Shown: positions 2,334-11,716 of the stretch, one piece after another
Layout: every line of letters begins with the position of its first letter
Position numbering within the stretch: position 1 is the stretch's first letter
From: a virus
Virus record (IMG/VR): IMGVR_UViG_3300032307_000133
Location: 1-20,457 of that record
DNA length: 20,457 nucleotides
Direction: 5' to 3' (one strand)
Program-made: the position numbers and the translations under genes
Notes under the pieces: model-generated
Database searches by the model: none
What the model was told of the DNA's origin: nothing
Seen by the model: only the letters and a program-made list of their open reading frames with translations

Positions 2334-3488
2334 TTAAATACTCCACTCATTAATCCCGTTAGATTTATAACGCAACCCGCTTCGATAGTTTAAATTATAA
2401 CGGACGCTTGTGTCTGTCCCTCCGTTATATCGAATAACGTCAGACCCAGATCGAGAAACGATAGGTTGATTGCCTTTGTATTGCTCAGGTTTTATAACAT
2501 CGACAAAACCGCCATTAGGAACTGATGATGCTAACGGTAAAGTGTAAGTCGATGAATCTGTAATATCATGCGCAGAATATGGCGTTAATGCTCCACCGCC
2601 TGACATAGTTCTCACTGTAGTTAAACGCGGCTCAGCTTGCCATTCTGGCTTCCACCAAACCTCTGCAGTATCCGCACTTGGCAGATTATTAAGATTTGCA
2701 GAATTCTTTGAAATATATCGCCGCTCCCCATCAAAAACATAATCACCAGCTGCGTAGGTTTTCCCCGCATTCCACTTAAAGCTATATTTTTCCTCTGCCC
2801 AAAATGCCTGTGATGTAGCTGGGTCATTACCTATATTTGACGATTGCTGAGAAACGTATCGATTTTCGCCAACATACACCGCCGCGCCAGCTGCGTAGGT
2901 TTTTGCAGAGTTCCAAATAAAGTGATCTTTCAGGTGATCCCAGTATGCGCTGTTTAAGCTTGGAGTTTGGCCGGTAGATGTTGCAATCGATTTATACCAA
3001 GCCCCTAAATACAAAACCCAATCATTGGTGACATACTCGCTTAGCAGGTTGTAATAGTCGGTTAGGTTGAATTGCTCCCAGCCAGCATCTACACCAGGCT
3101 CATTGTCTTGGTTCAAATCATCGAGACTTATCCAAAACAACCCACCATAAGAAACAATTTGATTTTCAAAGTATGACGTTTGCGAATTCCAAGGACTAAA
3201 CTCACCGGCAGCAGCAACGCCGCCAACAGGGTCAAAGGTTTGGATTATTGTCCCGTCTGTGTATTCGAGCTGGATTTTGTAATAGCGATTCTGCCCGAAG
3301 CAGGAAGGTACACGCCCACCAGCAAGCAATGGAAGCGGGTTTGCGTTAGGGTTTTGAAGATTGATGTCGGAAAATGAATCAATCTCGTCATTGGTTCCAG
3401 ATGCCAAAAACCGAAGCTGGCCATCAGTAAGCACCTCGCCGCCATCGCTGAAATACTGGGAAAATGCGTCTAGCAATCTAACGGCCAT
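2334..3488 (-). CDS. Tail fibre with repeated CBM5/12-like modules
   Basis: A 384-residue probable adhesin for host surface recognition. Residues 1-90 resemble the N-terminal particle-binding segment common to phage tail fibres: a YF.DGGEVL.DGQLRF start, NPNANPLPLLAGGRVP in the middle and a YTDGTIIQTFDPVGG end. Four modules of 33-45 residues follow (98-139, 153-185, 191-231, 238-282). Their pattern is W-N-x-x-x-x-Y-x-x-x-x-x-V-x-x-x-x-x-x-Y, ending in FW or WW, as in CBM5/12-like chitin-binding modules. The last two are the most alike (KTYAAGAAVY and KTYAAGDYVF). The C-terminal 85 residues resemble a beta-rich fibre tip. No beta-helix or hydrolase motif is seen, so it is unlikely to be an enzyme like the P22 tailspike. 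GAGGA precedes the ATG. Confidence 0.82.
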   Translation of the reverse strand: MAVRLLDAFSQYFSDGGEVLTDGQLRFLASGTNDEIDSFSDINLQNPNANPLPLLAGGRVPSCFGQNRYYKIQLEYTDGTIIQTFDPVGGVAAAGEFSPWNSQTSYFENQIVSYGGLFWISLDDLNQDNEPGVDAGWEQFNLTDYYNLLSEYVTNDWVLYLGAWYKSIATSTGQTPSLNSAYWDHLKDHFIWNSAKTYAAGAAVYVGENRYVSQQSSNIGNDPATSQAFWAEEKYSFKWNAGKTYAAGDYVFDGERRYISKNSANLNNLPSADTAEVWWKPEWQAEPRLTTVRTMSGGGALTPYSAHDITDSSTYTLPLASSVPNGGFVDVIKPEQYKGNQPIVSRSGSDVIRYNGGTDTSVRYNLNYRSGLRYKSNGINEWSI

Positions 3489-3509: not shown

Positions 3510-5375
3510 TCATTTAGGCGCCCTTATCATTTGGTTGCCCATCTTCTTGGCGCCACGCTGCCTATCTAGCAGCTCATTCATGGTCTTGTATTTATTGTCT
3601 GTATTAACACCCTTTAGCTTTTGGTATGCGGAGCCTGCCATATCCAACGCGGTATCAATTTTTGACTGACGAAGACCTTGTGTGACGCCTTTACCAACTT
3701 CGCTAGCGAATGAAGTATCTGCGGCAATCCCAAACTGCTTATCAAGAGTGTCTGCAAATTTTACCAGATTGGTTAGGTTGCCTGCACTCTCTGATCCATA
3801 TTGCATGGCAACATCATCGATATTTATCAGTGCATCACGAACACGCTCTGCGCTCTGCGCATTGCTCAAGATTCTGCGGGATAACCGGCCAAGAACTTGG
3901 GGCGAGTAATCAGCGTCAAGGTTAATTTTTTTGCCGACCAAATCCTGCACAGCATCGAGTGCGGTTTTTGTCTGCGCATAATCCTGATTTGCTGCACGGT
4001 AAGAATCAAAGTTTTCATCAAGGATAGTGTCAAGATCATGGCGCAAACCTTTTACTATCCTGTCTGTATTCCCCTTGAGCCCGCCAAGCGTAGAGCCGTA
4101 TGATGCCTGAGTATCGATGTACATCTTAAGCCGGTGAACATCAAAGGCGCTCGGGGTTTTGGTGTTATACATGCGGTCAATCAGGTTTTTAAGCACGCCC
4201 TGAGCCGATTTAAGCTCTGGAGTGTTGCCCTCTAGGTTTGAGCCTCGAAAGTTAATAGCGACACCGTTTTTGGCTGGCGTTATCTGCACGCCCAAATCAT
4301 CAGATACGCTTGCCAAAAATCTATCAACCGCTGGCGCAACATCAACGCGCTCGTTTTTCAGGGACTTTGCCGCTTCATTAATTGCCTCGCCAGCTTGCTT
4401 TTTGGCTCGCTTAACCTGCCAAACCTGCTTGGCAAACTCGTCGCCCATTTCAGCTAGCGGGCGATTATTAGCTTTAAATGTGTCGTCCTTTGTTCCCATT
4501 TGTGCAACGCGAAGCATCCGCGCGGCAACCTCAGCGGTTTTAGGGTCAAAGTTCTTAACTGACTGAACTGTCCCAGGCTCCCATTCCTGATCCATGGCTT
4601 TTTTTGCCGTGTCATCAGGCACCAGTTTGTAATCAGTGGCGCGCAACTCCATACCATGGACAGGCGTGCGCTTTGGCTCGATTCGATACTGTGCCAGCTC
4701 GTTCTCTGTTGAGCCTTCTTTGATTTTTTTAATTGTTTCGAGCTGCTTAGGATAGTTTGATGGCGACAATATCCCAAGCTCTTGCTTGGCCGCTTCGCCT
4801 GCTGATTTTATCCCCTGAGCTGCTGATGTGCGTAGCGCTGGAACTCCTGACCTAGCGGCATTACCCGCAATATTCATTTGAGCCGTAAGACCTGCTGCAC
4901 CAGCGAATGGGGCGGAAACTTCACCAAGCTTCCTGAGCATCTCTTGTGCTGCTGGTGATTTAGGAGAATAGGTGGCGCTACCACCAACATCTGCGGCACG
5001 CTGCTCGATTCTGTCAGCTGCTTCTTGCGTGCCAAATTGACCGCCCATTATCTCGCGCCCGCCCTGCTGTAGGGTTCCAGCAATATTACCAAGTAATCCA
5101 GTTGTTGCGCCGGTTGCCATTGTTGCGGCCACCTCTGGGATTGCCTTAAGCCTATCCATCATGCCAATTTTCTGAGCTTGTTGTGATGGCTGGCTTTGAG
5201 CATATACTTGGGCGACATAAGCATCCTGCTCGGGGCCTGGCACATCGGTATTCATTGGCTGCACTTGATCAAACTCACCCGCGCGTATGGCAGCAGCGAA
5301 TCTACGCGCCGCCGCAACATCACCGGCCTTGTCCGCATTTCTTAGCGCCTGCTCTAGTCGTTCTTTTGTCGCCAT
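3510..5375 (-). CDS. Ejection (internal virion) protein, gp16-like position
   Basis: A 621-residue protein, the last and largest of four ejection-type genes, comparable in length to P22 gp16 (609 residues). The N-terminus (about 4-34, ALRNADKAGDVAAARRFAAA) matches a short helical motif common at the start of phage internal virion proteins. Two Gly/Ala-rich hydrophobic stretches (79-101 and 152-173) could insert into membrane. The remainder is charged, helical and coiled-coil-like, with a conserved-looking YIDTQASYGSTLGGLKGNT segment. Proteins at this position are packaged in the capsid and expelled to help carry DNA across the envelope. The start overlaps the upstream stop by one base (TAATG). 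No lytic transglycosylase motif is apparent. The assignment leans on position and composition more than on clear homology. Confidence 0.72.
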   Translation of the reverse strand: MATKERLEQALRNADKAGDVAAARRFAAAIRAGEFDQVQPMNTDVPGPEQDAYVAQVYAQSQPSQQAQKIGMMDRLKAIPEVAATMATGATTGLLGNIAGTLQQGGREIMGGQFGTQEAADRIEQRAADVGGSATYSPKSPAAQEMLRKLGEVSAPFAGAAGLTAQMNIAGNAARSGVPALRTSAAQGIKSAGEAAKQELGILSPSNYPKQLETIKKIKEGSTENELAQYRIEPKRTPVHGMELRATDYKLVPDDTAKKAMDQEWEPGTVQSVKNFDPKTAEVAARMLRVAQMGTKDDTFKANNRPLAEMGDEFAKQVWQVKRAKKQAGEAINEAAKSLKNERVDVAPAVDRFLASVSDDLGVQITPAKNGVAINFRGSNLEGNTPELKSAQGVLKNLIDRMYNTKTPSAFDVHRLKMYIDTQASYGSTLGGLKGNTDRIVKGLRHDLDTILDENFDSYRAANQDYAQTKTALDAVQDLVGKKINLDADYSPQVLGRLSRRILSNAQSAERVRDALINIDDVAMQYGSESAGNLTNLVKFADTLDKQFGIAADTSFASEVGKGVTQGLRQSKIDTALDMAGSAYQKLKGVNTDNKYKTMNELLDRQRGAKKMGNQMIRAPK

Positions 5376-6538
5376 TAGTATTTACTCAACAAGTCTTCTA
5401 ATGATGGCTCACCCGTTGCCGCTGGAGGTGCGATACCTTGGGTGGCGCCAGCGGGGGCTGATTTCATTTGCTCTTGCTGCTGTTTGCGCCATGACGAAAT
5501 AAGGCTTTCGCCGGATCTTGTTCGCAGACTGCCGTTTTCTGATATGAAATTGGCTTTAAACTCTGAAAATTGAGCGCGCTTTTCATTTAAGCGAGCAACT
5601 GCTGATAACCAATTGGCAACGTATTCTGGCGACGCCTTTTCTGTTGGGAATGGCGCACGAACAATCTCAATATCACGATCAGTAGCAGGCCCGGGGGGAA
5701 GGTTCTTGATCGCCTCACTATTTACGATCTGCATTGCCTGTTTGCGAAGACCAGTAACCTCGTCTTGATTGCCGGTTTGTTCTTTGATGTATTCTGTCCA
5801 TGTTGATTTTAGGCCGCCAGACATTGCTGATTGCTTTATCTGGTCGGCTAGCGTCATGTATCTACTAGCATCAGCAGAAGCAGTTGCAGCCTCTGTGCTG
5901 GCCATATCAAGCTGTTTTTCCGCGTAGGCCGATAGATCCATTCCTTCACGCGAAATCATATTTAGCTTACGCCCAACAGCCTCTTTTTCAGGGCCTTCTG
6001 GCAATCTGTTGTAATACTCAATCTCTTGGATTGATGCTGGTGCCTGCCCTTGCGCTGCCATCGCTGGGTCTTGCTTCTTGAAGTCAAATTGCTCGCGCTT
6101 TAGATCAATTTGAGCTTGTTGGTATGGCGTCATTCTTTCCGCTTCTGGTGGCTGCCAGAATATAGCGCCAGCGTCTACCGTATCCTGTAGTCCGCGCTGC
6201 AATTGCTCAAACTTTGCAGGATCACCAGATACAAGCAAATCTTTCACGCGCAAAGAGTCAGAGGGATCACCCCCCAGCTTATTTATTGACTCGATGCGGT
6301 TATCGAGAAGCTTTACAGCCGCCCCCATCTTACCTCCACCAATCAATTTCTGCAGCTGGTAGGCATCTTGAACCATTGCTGCGTAGCGCTCTTTAGAAAG
6401 CATTTGCTGCTTCTGCTGCTGCGCTTCTTGCTCCTGCTGCTCAATCATGCGCCGCTGGTCTTGCTGTGCGTTAAATTGCGGCAAATTGCCGGACAATCCC
6501 GCGCTTACGGCCTGCAATAAAGTACCTATGTTCGCCAT
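5375..6538 (-). CDS. Ejection-type internal virion protein
   Basis: A 387-residue, mainly helical protein. Residues 24-50 form a Gln/Glu-rich coiled-coil (QQDQRRMIEQQEQEAQQQ). The middle has charged helices. The C-terminal third carries LPPGPATDRDIEIVRAPFPT followed by EYVANWL, a motif found in several phage internal proteins next to injection genes. The C-terminal tail is Ala/Pro-rich, with a final SLEDLLSKY. It starts 3 bases after the upstream stop with GGGAG before the ATG, and its stop overlaps the next start. Position among the other ejection proteins suggests a role in the DNA conduit; a scaffold-like or chaperone role for the neighbouring proteins is also possible. Confidence 0.68.
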   Translation of the reverse strand: MANIGTLLQAVSAGLSGNLPQFNAQQDQRRMIEQQEQEAQQQKQQMLSKERYAAMVQDAYQLQKLIGGGKMGAAVKLLDNRIESINKLGGDPSDSLRVKDLLVSGDPAKFEQLQRGLQDTVDAGAIFWQPPEAERMTPYQQAQIDLKREQFDFKKQDPAMAAQGQAPASIQEIEYYNRLPEGPEKEAVGRKLNMISREGMDLSAYAEKQLDMASTEAATASADASRYMTLADQIKQSAMSGGLKSTWTEYIKEQTGNQDEVTGLRKQAMQIVNSEAIKNLPPGPATDRDIEIVRAPFPTEKASPEYVANWLSAVARLNEKRAQFSEFKANFISENGSLRTRSGESLISSWRKQQQEQMKSAPAGATQGIAPPAATGEPSLEDLLSKY

Positions 6539-8121: not shown

Positions 8122-8715
8122 CTAAAATAGTTTTTTGAGAGCCTTGCGAGCAGGGTCTTTAGATTCGATTTTCTTCACGATAGACTTTGCGCCGCCTACC
8201 GGATCTTTTGCGTAATTCAGCGGATTAAGTAGGTCTTTTGTGCTTGGCGATGTGCCGACATTGGATGGCACATTTTCATAAGGGCCGTATGCGCCAAGCA
8301 TTGCAACCATTGCATCCTTGCCCAAAATGTTGTTTTCTTTGGGTTGCTGCGAATTTTTATACTGCGGCAGCGTTTGAGGAATAAAACCAAAATCAGGCTG
8401 CTGGAATGGAGTTACCTGGCCACCAAGAATGGCTGACATTGCATTATTCTGCCCCTGATTAAAAAGACCGGCCTGCTGAGGAAGTGAGCCGCGCAAAATA
8501 TCTAGCGCTGCCTGCCCGCCCATCATAGAGTTATCAGCCTGCATTCCGTAAAGTCGATTCACGTCATCGCGCGCTTGGCTTGTTTGCTGCAATATGAAAT
8601 CGCGTTCTTCTGCGTTTTGCCCCGCTTGCGCTTTTGATGCCTCTTTTGACGCCTTGTTTGACCTGTTTGCCGCATAAGCTGTACCGGCTGCGGCTATTGC
8701 TACACCGAATGGCAT
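8122..8715 (-). CDS. Small ejection-type virion protein, gp7-like position
   Basis: A 197-residue protein with an N-terminal Ala/Gly-rich hydrophobic segment (PFGVAIAAAGTAYAA, 2-16). A Lys/Ala/Gln helical region follows (17-55), then a Gln/Asn/Gly-rich middle and a basic C-terminus (SIVKKIESKDPARKALKKLF). Such an N-terminal Ala-rich stretch is common in small phage injection proteins, and the gene is the first of four ejection-type genes, as gp7 is in P22 (229 residues). Its ATG directly abuts the stop of the cupin gene, with GAGGTGAG serving as ribosome site. No enzymatic motif is seen. The functional call is from position and composition. Confidence 0.65.
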   Translation of the reverse strand: MPFGVAIAAAGTAYAANRSNKASKEASKAQAGQNAEERDFILQQTSQARDDVNRLYGMQADNSMMGGQAALDILRGSLPQQAGLFNQGQNNAMSAILGGQVTPFQQPDFGFIPQTLPQYKNSQQPKENNILGKDAMVAMLGAYGPYENVPSNVGTSPSTKDLLNPLNYAKDPVGGAKSIVKKIESKDPARKALKKLF

Positions 8716-9069
8716 TTAGCTCACCTCGCTAATAAATTGGTCGCTGAATTCGTGCTCTTCGTGGATATCCACTTTGCCAGTTCGGTCGATTCTGTGAATG
8801 CAGTAAACCACCGTATTGGGCTCAAGGCTCATGAAGGTGTGCTTGGTTTCGGCTGGGATATTGATTGGAATCGGGGCTTTAAAGTCGCCCATAAGCTCGC
8901 CGTTTTGCCAAACACGGATAGATCCGTGGGCAAGCATGGAGGCATGTTCGTAAGAGTGGGAGTGCTGAGGTACGTAGGTGCCTACTTTCTCCATCAGCAT
9001 TTGCTTGATGAATATTCCATCAGGAAGGGCGAACTCTACTTCTGGCAATTCAATCTTTTCTGCTGTCAT
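8716..9069 (-). CDS. Cupin-domain protein
   Basis: A 117-residue single-domain cupin. Motif 1 is G30-x5-H36-x-H38-x3-H42-x6-G49; His42 stands where the classical motif has Glu, with E41 beside it. Motif 2 has P72, H77 and N85 (IPAETKHTFMSLEPN). The metal site would thus be H36, H38, H77 and H42 or E41. Cupins of this size may be metal enzymes (dioxygenases, isomerases) or simple metal or ligand binders, and the sequence does not fix a substrate. It overlaps the preceding dioxygenase-like gene by ATGA and directly abuts the first ejection gene, so it is made with the late virion genes. The C-terminal tail (DIHEEHEFSDQFISEVS) is acidic. Confidence 0.82.
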   Translation of the reverse strand: MTAEKIELPEVEFALPDGIFIKQMLMEKVGTYVPQHSHSYEHASMLAHGSIRVWQNGELMGDFKAPIPINIPAETKHTFMSLEPNTVVYCIHRIDRTGKVDIHEEHEFSDQFISEVS

Positions 9070-9626
9070 GCGGCACCTCTGAATTTGTCAGTCTTTATGC
9101 AAATTATCATTGATATGCGGTCTTGATCGCTGTCGTTAATAACCCAGTGGGCTATGTTGTTTCTAAACAACCAGCAATCGCCGTTATCTGCGATAATTTC
9201 GCCGCCATCAAACCCAAATACTGATTTATCGGGTGCGGATATGGCTACATAAAACTTCTCATAATACTCAGCGTGCCACCCTGAATCAGAGTGTGGCTGT
9301 ATTCTACCACCGGGTGGAAGTTTTGTAATCAGTATCCCGCCCAATCGCTCGCCATCTACTGCGGCCATTACGTCAAATGCCATTCGCTTGGCGCCTTCAA
9401 TGACATCAGCGGACGGATACCAAATAGAATCATGCTCAGCTACGGACGCGGAAAAGTCACCGTTAGCCGTGTCACCAAACCTAACCCATATGTCAGTCAT
9501 TTCGCTGTGCGGGCTGCCCTTACAAATGCGGCGTTGTGGATTTTGATCCCAAAGCTGCGGATTGTTCAAAAGTGAACTTTTGATAGGCTCAACGTTCAAA
9601 CCCGAAAGTATTTTTTTGAATATCAT
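9066..9626 (-). CDS. 2-oxoglutarate/Fe(II) dioxygenase, Asp/Asn hydroxylase-like
   Basis: A 186-residue protein with the facial-triad signature of 2OG-Fe(II) oxygenases: H112-x-D114 in LPPGGRIQPHSDSGWH, distal H160 in NNIAHWVIND, and R170 ten residues on (DRISMII) as the likely 2-oxoglutarate anchor. The core resembles the aspartyl/asparaginyl beta-hydroxylase type of jelly roll, and the length fits one catalytic domain with no extra module. It would hydroxylate a protein side chain or small molecule; the target is unknown. The ATG at 9626 gives an ATGA overlap with the upstream stop; an ATG four codons earlier is possible. It is coupled to the cupin gene downstream. Hydroxylase-like genes occur in many phages, but placement inside the tail operon is notable. 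Confidence 0.82.
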   Translation of the reverse strand: MIFKKILSGLNVEPIKSSLLNNPQLWDQNPQRRICKGSPHSEMTDIWVRFGDTANGDFSASVAEHDSIWYPSADVIEGAKRMAFDVMAAVDGERLGGILITKLPPGGRIQPHSDSGWHAEYYEKFYVAISAPDKSVFGFDGGEIIADNGDCWLFRNNIAHWVINDSDQDRISMIICIKTDKFRGAA

Positions 9627-9880
9627 TCCAGCACCCATCCGGATTTAACATCACCGGCAACATTGGTTAGCATCTTTATCCATTTGATAGAACCGGTCGT
9701 CCCTGCTCTGTCGATGTACTGCGTGAACTGTGGGGCGCTAACTACCCCCTCGGGAGAGCCATCACCCAAGATAGGGAGTGACCGGCTAACTTCTTGCGTC
9801 CATTGCATGAATGGCTGTTGCATTACCATTCTGTCATCAGCAATAGCCAGGTGCGGGACGGGGGGATTTACGCCACTCAT
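9623..9880 (-). CDS. Small tail-region protein, unknown
   Basis: An 85-residue protein. The N-terminal half is Pro-rich with MQQPFMQWTQEVSRSLPILG (20-39). The C-terminal half reads EGVVSAPQFTQYIDRAGTTG and then SIKWIKM and GWVLE, a pattern common in small phage proteins next to tail or neck genes, where a strand-turn-strand unit ends in GWxLx. The start overlaps the gp10-like stop by ATGA, with GAGG upstream. It lies where P22 carries the tail needle gene 26, but it is far too short for that 233-residue coiled-coil protein. It could be a tail plug or adaptor; function unassigned. Confidence 0.65.
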   Translation of the reverse strand: MSGVNPPVPHLAIADDRMVMQQPFMQWTQEVSRSLPILGDGSPEGVVSAPQFTQYIDRAGTTGSIKWIKMLTNVAGDVKSGWVLE

Positions 9881-11292
9881 TGGATATCTGCCTCGATTTT
9901 AAGAATCATCTTTTTGCAGTTATCGGAAATAACCAGCTTCATAATCGCCAACCGAGAGAATCCGCCAAGCCTGCGCCAGATAGCCCTGCGAAGATATTCG
10001 CCAACCTTGCCTAATGCGCGAGGGCGCTCATCACTGAATTTGCGGCCATCTTTAGACCATGACAGTCTGATCTGTGGATTAGGCTCTTCGCTTGTGCCTA
10101 CGCCTGACTCACAGGTGGCCTCGAACGAAACAACGGAAAAATATTCGCTTTGATTTGAGAATGGCTGAGTGACCCAAGTGCTGATTATTGCGTTGCCGTA
10201 TTCTTTGTAAGTGTCGGGTGACAATTTACCTATGCGCCCGTCTTGGCTGTCGCCAACATAGATGCCGCCGTAAACCTGACACAATGAATTAACGCGCCAC
10301 CTCTCGCTAACATCATCAATAAGCGACTCTCGTGCGTGCCAGCGTTTTGATAAAAGCTCATAAACAATCGTTTTAGTGGGCAGACTGAATCCAACAAAAT
10401 AAGAGCCGTCTTGCGCGTAATAAAATCCGAATGTGTTCTGTATGCCTTCCTTTTGGAGCTCGCCACGGATTATAAAATCCTCGGCGTCTGTTGATATCTT
10501 CTCAGCTGATTGGCCGGTCGAACCCCATACCGCTGGTGATTCGTTTTCACCTGCACCAATCCAAAAGAATGAATCCGATGCCGAAACAACGGCGTGTCGG
10601 AATGCCAGCCCCTTGTTAATTAATAAGCCTCTGATCTTGGCGAAAGGAAAGTCTGAGCCGCCAATGTTTTGGAACGCCTCAGTTGTAATTGCGCCCATCA
10701 TGTAAAGCTGCCCACGGAAGAACAAGGGCGAGACTATATCGTCTGGGTCTCCATCAGCCCGAGAGAAGTCCAGCGCATTCCACGATAGCCCATCGTCAAT
10801 TCCTGACCCGACAAACTTCTTTTCGTCGGTCGAGCAAATGAAATACCCATCTGCATAAACTACCTTTTGCGGCGTACCGTTATCAGTAAAGCCACTGGCA
10901 GTTATTTCAGTAAGCGTTCCCGCCTCAAAAATATAACCATCGCCCAATTCATTCAGGATCATTAACTGTGTGCCATTGGTCGCCATTGAAACGCGGTCTT
11001 CACCGGCAATCTCGCCAAGGTCGGTCAATGTCATGCCTGCATTAAGCCGAACTAACCGCGACCCTTGAACGTAATAGGCCACGCCATTCATCACTAAAGC
11101 ACCACGCGACACGTTGCGATAATTACCGATATTGGCAACTTGGGTTATTCCGTCCGTACCGATGATGTATCCGTCAGACAAGGCCGCACCCTGCGCGGGT
11201 ACATAGTAAAAGTTCGTCAGTTGCTGCGAACTGAAAAGTCTTGACTTGGTGGCGTAAGATCCACCAAACACGGGGAGATTAACTATTGCCAT
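9877..11292 (-). CDS. Packaged DNA stabilisation protein, P22 gp10-like
   Basis: A 471-residue protein, close to P22 gp10 (472 residues). That family forms a hexameric part of the tail machine below gp4, closing the portal channel after packaging. The start MAIVNLPVFGGSYATKSR, then QLTNFYYVPAQG and later NYRNVSRGALVMNGVAYYV, match the beginning of gp10 proteins. The rest reads as short beta strands of a propeller-like fold with repeated G-x-Y-F/V motifs (GYIFEAG, GYFICSTD, GSYFVGFS). The ATG at 11292 overlaps the gp4-like gene by 14 bases; further upstream starts lie inside that gene and give no gp10-like residues. The ribosome site is weak (GGTG), consistent with coupling to gp4 translation. 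Confidence 0.88.
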   Translation of the reverse strand: MAIVNLPVFGGSYATKSRLFSSQQLTNFYYVPAQGAALSDGYIIGTDGITQVANIGNYRNVSRGALVMNGVAYYVQGSRLVRLNAGMTLTDLGEIAGEDRVSMATNGTQLMILNELGDGYIFEAGTLTEITASGFTDNGTPQKVVYADGYFICSTDEKKFVGSGIDDGLSWNALDFSRADGDPDDIVSPLFFRGQLYMMGAITTEAFQNIGGSDFPFAKIRGLLINKGLAFRHAVVSASDSFFWIGAGENESPAVWGSTGQSAEKISTDAEDFIIRGELQKEGIQNTFGFYYAQDGSYFVGFSLPTKTIVYELLSKRWHARESLIDDVSERWRVNSLCQVYGGIYVGDSQDGRIGKLSPDTYKEYGNAIISTWVTQPFSNQSEYFSVVSFEATCESGVGTSEEPNPQIRLSWSKDGRKFSDERPRALGKVGEYLRRAIWRRLGGFSRLAIMKLVISDNCKKMILKIEADIQ

Positions 11293-11716
11293 CAGCTGCA
11301 CCAGGATAAAAGGTATCATCCCACAACCCATCAGCCGTATTGCCTGAGCCGCGCGGCAACGTGCTTGGGAATTCAGTAACAGTTACCGTTTGCCCCAATC
11401 GATACATGGTAGCCATGCCTTTCTTGGCCTTCTTTTGCAGCTCAAAGCTAATCGGGCGGCCAAATTGTGGAGCGATGAGAATAGCGATATTGGACACCAT
11501 GCCCATGATTGCGCCATCGGGGACGGTTATCGCATCACTCAGCGAATTCACCTGCGTGTAGCCAAGGTCAACGCCATCGGCCTCTAGCCCAGCCATCCAC
11601 GAATTCATTACAAAGATGGCATCGCGGTATTCGTCACTTTCTAGCGGAGCTTCTGACGCCTGAACCAGTATTTCCTGTAGCGACTGCTTTAGTAGTTGCG
11701 CTGCTGTCGTCGCCAT
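11279..11716 (-). CDS. Tail accessory factor, P22 gp4-like
   Basis: A 145-residue protein matching the gp4/head-to-tail adaptor family by length (P22 gp4, 166 residues), position between coat and gp10, and pattern. A first helix (AAQLLKQSLQEILVQ) is followed by SDEYRDAIFVMNSWMAGLEADG, DLGYTQVNSLSDAITVPDGA and the helix MGMVSNIAILIAPQFG. The family binds the portal as a dodecamer and stabilises packaged DNA. P22 gp4 also has muramidase activity; no catalytic residues could be assigned here. The ATG at 11716 was chosen over an upstream GTG because AAAGGTG precedes it. The first 83 bases overlap the small gene upstream in another frame. Confidence 0.85.
   Translation of the reverse strand: MATTAAQLLKQSLQEILVQASEAPLESDEYRDAIFVMNSWMAGLEADGVDLGYTQVNSLSDAITVPDGAIMGMVSNIAILIAPQFGRPISFELQKKAKKGMATMYRLGQTVTVTEFPSTLPRGSGNTADGLWDDTFYPGAADGNS

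Follow-up and report, generated by a model that had tools for sequence, protein, structure and literature searches.

L-Proline cis-4-hydroxylase (4p7w) and proline 3-hydroxylase (1e5r) are enzymes of about 280 aa that act on free L-proline, and they share the 2OG double-stranded beta-helix fold and an HxD...H...R site with an oxygenase encoded in the phage virion operon analysed here. The phage oxygenase differs from both in its length (186 aa), its low identity to them (about 10%) and its match to a protein N-terminus that would present proline after methionine removal. By Pfam cut-off it belongs to the PF05118 family of AspH, which acts on proteins, and LpxO, from which it is set apart by a fixed operon slot before the ejection genes and by a class signature (G97, W117, K124 and C176) that is lost or changed in relatives paired with a GNAT acetyltransferase. 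The neighbouring cupin has an H-x-H-x3-H...H metal pattern in common with 4-His manganese cupins of the TM1459 type and with CelOCE, but is phage-encoded and operon-coupled to a 2OG oxygenase. Bacterial N-terminal acetyltransferases (Rim-type GNATs) are matched to small-residue N-termini, as is the GNAT that takes the same slot in other phages, where it is encoded in the virion operon and acetylation is putative.

P22 and T7 carry gp14 (DUF2824) and gp13, respectively, at the same place between neck or tail genes and ejection genes. Neither has a Pfam or PHROG family in common with the oxygenase or the cupin, and no sequence similarity to the slot GNAT family was detected for either, the P22 gp14 relatives in IMG/VR being too uniform for a profile. 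Searches of open PMC text turned up nothing relevant on a phage beta-hydroxylase with a cupin, on acetylated N-termini in internal virion proteins, on hydroxylation of an N-terminal proline or on hydroxyproline in phage virions. Here, enzyme type in this slot covaries with the N-terminus encoded by the next gene, and this link is a new result.

The oxygenase and cupin genes of the window

The window, that is, the whole stretch of DNA analysed, is a fragment of a virus contig, 20,457 bases long, whose minus strand carries a P22-type virion operon. Its genes run in the order TerS, TerL, portal, scaffold, P22-type coat, gp4, gp10, an 85-aa gene, oxygenase, cupin, a 197-aa gene, a phrog_598 ejection protein, a phrog_917 protein, a third ejection gene and a tail protein (Table 1), of which TerS, TerL, scaffold, gp4 and the third ejection gene are named from position and sequence only. 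The coat (PF11651, E = 8e-61) and the gp10 neck protein (PF11134) mark the virion module as P22-like; gp14 (DUF2824), which stands ahead of gp7 in such a module, is not at that place in the window, where the slot contains the oxygenase and cupin. A first-pass annotation of this DNA had picked out both reading frames, their ATGA overlaps and the oxygenase residues H112-x-D114, H160 and R170. Both frames are real, the coordinates and overlaps are present in the sequence, and the residues are correct as numbered from the ATG at 9626. The pair had also been placed rightly, with gp10 upstream beyond a single 85-aa gene and the phrog_598 and phrog_917 ejection proteins downstream. The cupin stop abuts the ATG of the 197-aa gene at 8715.

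Table 1 Features of the operon around the oxygenase and cupin, in gene order
Feature	Positions	Strand	Evidence or remark
gp10-like head-closure/neck protein	9877..11331	-	phrog_578 E 6e-105; PF11134 E 1e-10
85-aa gene between gp10 and oxygenase	9623..9880	-	weak phrog_21909 match
ATGA overlap, 85-aa gene stop/oxygenase start	9623..9626	-	sequence
2OG-Fe(II) oxygenase (HYDROX), 186 aa	9066..9626	-	PF05118 match; AlphaFold2 model; H112, D114, H160 metal triad and R170 2OG arginine
ATGA overlap, oxygenase stop/cupin start	9066..9069	-	sequence
4-His cupin (CUPIN), 117 aa	8716..9069	-	AlphaFold2 model, Foldseek; H36, H38, H42, H77 and C90
Codons 1-3 of the 197-aa gene, ATG CCA TTC (Met-Pro-Phe); proposed modification site, putatively Pro2 after Met removal	8707..8715	-	covariation with enzyme
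197-aa gene, first downstream of cupin, N-terminus MPFGVAIAAAG; proposed substrate	8122..8715	-	same N-terminal motif in relatives
DNA-ejection protein, phrog_598 domain, 523 aa	6542..8113	-	phrog_598 E 1.7e-16
gp20-like ejection protein	5375..6538	-	phrog_917 E 6.4e-9
gp16-position ejection protein, 621 aa	3510..5375	-	follows gp20-like gene; no family match
Tail protein	2334-3488		CBM_5_12 carbohydrate-binding module match E 2.4e-4, under curated cut-off

The oxygenase matches PF05118 (Asp_Arg_Hydrox; E = 1e-8, 35.6 bits against a curated cut-off of 22.6) and no PHROG of known function. Its AlphaFold2 model has a pLDDT of 94.5 with 87 sequences in the alignment. Among solved folds the model is closest to 1e5r (Z = 15.5) and 4p7w (Z = 15.2), with a nucleoside-antibiotic beta-hydroxylase (7v4m, Z = 14.9) tied with these proline hydroxylases and AspH next (Z = 14.3), and 4p7w ranks first in a profile search of PDB sequences (E = 1.8e-6). 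Across 87 diverse relatives H112, D114 and H160 are invariant and R170 is kept in >90%; in a second set of 184 sequences the triad stands at 99-100% and R170 at 98%. Retention of the metal triad and R170 in both sets indicates that oxygenase catalysis is under selection.

The AlphaFold2 model of the cupin (10 sequences) has a pLDDT of 77.4, and its Foldseek comparison with metal cupins gave a best E of 7e-6 and 223 matches at E <= 0.001. Profile matches include 1vj2 (TM1459, E = 4e-5) and 9bwf (E = 6e-7). Four histidines (H36, H38, H42 and H77) and C90 are invariant in 72 cupin sequences, and the histidines are arranged like the metal ligands of TM1459 and similar 4-His cupins. The Pfam Cupin_2 score of the window cupin is below the cut-off (12.6 against 27.2 bits), so the protein is not filed as Cupin_2. 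The first-pass reading of a 2OG oxygenase with intact catalytic residues and a metal-type cupin, both in late operon position, is thus supported. Distant relatives of the cupin (L028, L029 and L161-L180) stand alone in other viral contigs, in a different gene neighbourhood. Apparent N-terminal fusions of the oxygenase or cupin were rejected, nearly all being frame artefacts of open reading frame picking.

Distribution and alternative partners of the oxygenase

A profile scan of IMG/VR returned 423 oxygenase relatives, of which 80 were kept, and 73 cupin relatives; GTDB genomes yielded 16 loci, many in Variovorax, Paraburkholderia, Cupriavidus and Undibacterium. Among prophages, Paraburkholderia kirstenboschensis LMG 28727 has the oxygenase with a cupin and an MPWG start, whereas Pseudomonas phage PfAn1 combines the oxygenase with a GNAT and an MVAAA start. 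The pair had seemed unusual for this slot of a P22-like map. It proves to be widely distributed among IMG/VR podophages, and only the cultured ones nearly lack it, with the oxygenase found in 3 of 50,697 phage records. Nor is the pairing a matter of chance, since dozens of diverged phages have the same two genes in this position.

Partners were counted at 129 oxygenase places on unique contigs, sampled near the query, and the counts are not population frequencies. A cupin lies beside the oxygenase in 93 places (77 downstream, 16 upstream), a P-loop (sulfotransferase-like) protein takes its place upstream in 21, and a GNAT acetyltransferase is the downstream partner in 3, whereas 7 oxygenases have no partner and 5 places are truncated at a contig end. 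The partner types are mutually exclusive, none of the 129 places combining two of them. The two-protein unit envisaged in the first-pass annotation is therefore not obligatory, as the cupin may be replaced by a P-loop or GNAT protein or be missing. The P-loop partner carries a GLPRSRTAWL motif (alignment including L008, L010 and L055) and matches phrog_10855, annotated 'hydrolase' (E = 3e-11); its best Sulfotransfer_3 score lies below the Pfam cut-off (18.5 against 27 bits), and a profile search of PDB gave no convincing match.

In nearly all loci examined the oxygenase lies just upstream of internal-virion genes, rather than alone at scattered positions. Distant cupin relatives do in part occur alone elsewhere, 18 of 149 loci being without an oxygenase and without a recognised ejection gene. 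At loci where window-seeded profiles missed gp10 or gp7, PHROG scans placed virion structural, DNA-ejection, internal virion and lytic-domain proteins on the downstream side; on the upstream side there were often tail or tail-fibre proteins. The constant neighbour of the oxygenase is thus the ejection gene. Probable homing (HNH) endonuclease genes are inserted beside the slot in L446 and L079.

Enzyme type and the start of the first ejection protein

In nearly every case the first gene downstream of the oxygenase module encodes a start of the form M-P-[W/F/Y]-[G/A], most often leading into an Ala-rich stretch, and the bodies of these proteins are not conserved. An MP-x start is present in about 101 of 117 sampled oxygenase loci, and several of the other ~16 are mis-called reading frames or inserted small genes. 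In pairs of ejection proteins with bodies <25% identical, the first 8 residues are 63% identical. The window protein starts MPFGVAIAAAG and its closest relative MPWGVAIAAA. In window-type phages (the window, L004, L005 and L018) this start belongs to a separate gene of ~170-200 aa that precedes the one for the phrog_598 ejection protein, an arrangement resembling a single gene broken in two.

With a GNAT in the slot, the next protein starts MVAAA, MVAIA, MGVTA or MCVAAA. Five non-redundant oxygenases that occur with a GNAT precede proteins lacking Pro2 (MVAAA, MVAIA, MGVTA and probably a GTG-started MAAAV), so the oxygenase family as a whole is not proline-only. All five keep the metal triad and R170 and differ at G97 (R in 5/5), P104, W117, K124 (R in 5/5) and C176 (D in 5/5), which, from these alignments, are candidate substrate-pocket positions. 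Two cupin-only loci were examined: L139 has an MPVG start without an oxygenase, which counts against a strict link between the two, and the true start in L128 could not be found. GNAT acetyltransferases occupy the same slot in many other podophages (L421-L449 and L450-L453), where the next gene starts MCVAAA, and a MAV start follows the slot GNAT in three Zobellviridae records and in a Variovorax Autographiviridae phage.

IMG/VR was scanned with patterns for the N-terminal peptide alone, the enzyme not being used as a condition. The pattern MPW[GA]xAA gave at least 120 stretches, 84 of them assessable; among the matches listed, the oxygenase is directly upstream in 73/84 (60 with a cupin, 12 with a P-loop protein and 1 alone), and the remaining 11 comprise 10 unrelated proteins and one microvirus-like pilot protein (L407). 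Restricted to ejection-like cases, again among the matches listed, the oxygenase is upstream in 73/74, the exception being L407. We set L407 aside as a true exception: it is without a gp10, ejection or enzyme match and, as we read the sequence, resembles a microvirus pilot gene. For MCVAAAI[GA], a complete IMG/VR scan gave 29 stretches, with a GNAT upstream in 26/26 assessable cases and an oxygenase in 0/26. Prophage loci reached through the ejection domain phrog_598 also fit the rule, this set being only partly independent because three of its genomes were reached through oxygenase hits. We note that the probable pilot protein in L407 (L407:2689-3342) starts MPWGAAAA with no enzyme nearby, possibly by chance and possibly through the same membrane function.

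A tree of 108 ejection-protein bodies with their N-termini removed, a quick tree in which several branches are long and roughly half of the inner ones are open, shows enzyme state and N-terminal state each changing 16 times. Enzyme state was scored as 'oxygenase without GNAT', with five rows unscored (true start on another gene or mis-called). In 8 independent enzyme-differing pairs on well-supported branches, the N-terminus follows the enzyme in 7.9 on average and never goes the opposite way (P = 0.008). One close pair switches both traits: L090 has the oxygenase and MPWG, and L283 has the GNAT and MCVAAA.

A predicted N-terminal modification and competing readings

We propose that the slot encodes an enzyme which modifies the first ejection protein at its N-terminus ahead of packaging and that the window oxygenase works on the Met-Pro-aromatic-Gly/Ala start, most likely hydroxylating Pro2 after Met removal, a reading to which we assign a probability of roughly 0.57. 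Methionine aminopeptidase cleaves Met before Pro; the host enzyme would remove Met from the MP-aromatic start and expose an N-terminal proline, which the oxygenase would then hydroxylate. An exposed N-terminal Pro resembles free proline, the substrate of the closest-fold hydroxylases. The cupin, the P-loop (sulfotransferase-like) protein of other phages, or nothing at all would supply an interchangeable accessory or second step, which may work on the product or shield it. N-terminal acetyltransferases of the GNAT kind take small exposed residues as substrates, and the GNAT variant of the slot would acetylate the N-termini of small-residue starts (MCVAAA, MAV and MVAAA). The modification may tune how the first ejection protein is packaged, ejected or inserted into the outer membrane. 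In P22 a host protease trims 20 residues from the N-terminus of gp7 (record annotation), a precedent for N-terminal processing of the first ejection protein. The first-pass annotation had named the neighbouring ejection protein as a possible target; the covariation argues strongly for this protein and narrows the target to its N-terminus, whereas nothing supports its Asn/Gln-rich stretches in that role.

The oxygenase might instead act on the N-terminal segment away from Pro2, hydroxylating the aromatic residue 3 or a nearby residue, or using the MP-aromatic start only to dock and then modifying the ejection protein at another site. An aromatic residue occupies position 3 in most loci (85 W, 7 F and 2 Y among 101 starts, a count that took only starts with Pro2), as this alternative would have it, and the oxygenase is also present with non-Pro N-termini in the GNAT loci, which weakens the proline-specific form of our proposal. 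In the same count, however, V, A, I or L sometimes replaces the aromatic residue with Pro2 retained, and free-proline hydroxylases are among the closest solved folds; we consider a target other than Pro2 not very likely.

Passive linkage would offer another account of the covariation: the N-terminus would be conserved for a reason of its own, such as outer-membrane insertion, and would move together with the neighbouring enzyme gene when recombination occurs within the ejection gene, the enzyme having its target elsewhere. Enzyme and ejection-gene start do lie within a few bases of each other, a closeness that could help to keep the enzyme and the first codons of the next gene together and to that extent counts against our proposal, and close pairs such as L090 and L283 fit a breakpoint just past the N-terminus. 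However, the N-terminus does not vary with the gene that borders the ejection gene (the cupin in 48/74 loci, the oxygenase in 26/74), and the MP-aromatic link persists across an extra reading frame (L187, L188 and L191), as does the GNAT link past the HNH insertion in L446. In L123 the module is ~2 kb from the ejection gene, which still starts LPVPYGFAAAA. Physical linkage alone thus fits poorly. All four Pro, all four Gly and all four Ala codons are used in MP-aromatic starts, and this variety, which places the conservation at the protein level, also counts against passive linkage, an explanation we regard as unlikely.

It is improbable that the enzymes act on a small molecule or a host surface component (lipopolysaccharide or a metabolite), with the late operon setting only the timing of expression. 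Cupins and 2OG oxygenases often have such substrates, and the oxygenase weakly matches LpxO (NF033391, E = 0.0016, 17.6 bits against a cut-off of 500), but a target of this kind leaves unexplained both the match of enzyme type to N-terminus and the constant place before internal-virion genes, and nothing was found in support of the host-surface molecule that the first-pass annotation had entertained. Least probable of all is that the oxygenase and cupin are structural or chaperone factors that bind the ejection N-terminus and have lost catalysis, which the slot shared with P22 gp14 ('virion stability factor' or 'head assembly protein') and T7 gp13 might suggest and the metal and 2OG residues kept across 87 to 184 sequences argue against.

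Modification of the N-terminus by the slot enzyme, our preferred reading, may extend to T7. Ejection proteins of the T7 gp14 type directly after gp13 start MCW in 28/29 loci and MCE in one (L198 and L455-L483), so the T7 slot also precedes a conserved N-terminus. We tentatively suggest an undescribed N-terminal code in short-tailed phages, in which a dedicated, swappable enzyme beside the first ejection protein (oxygenase with cupin or P-loop protein for Met-Pro-aromatic, GNAT for Met-small and perhaps gp13 for T7 MCW) would covalently modify its N-terminus, including by N-terminal proline hydroxylation, for correct packaging or outer-membrane opening. The preferred reading predicts a post-translational modification on ejection proteins, none of which was found described in the open literature searched. 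If true, it would supply a substrate and a purpose for a large set of phage 2OG oxygenases and cupins that have no assigned target and account for unrelated enzymes sharing one slot in podophage genomes. The role of the small gene between neck and ejection genes in P22 (gp14) and T7 (gp13), an old question, would become directly testable. The same gene order is found in the Bcep22-like phage JC1, whose gp61-gp64 are a head closure protein, a 117-aa gene, an acetyltransferase that its authors call a moron gene and a virion-associated protein (PMC9144972).
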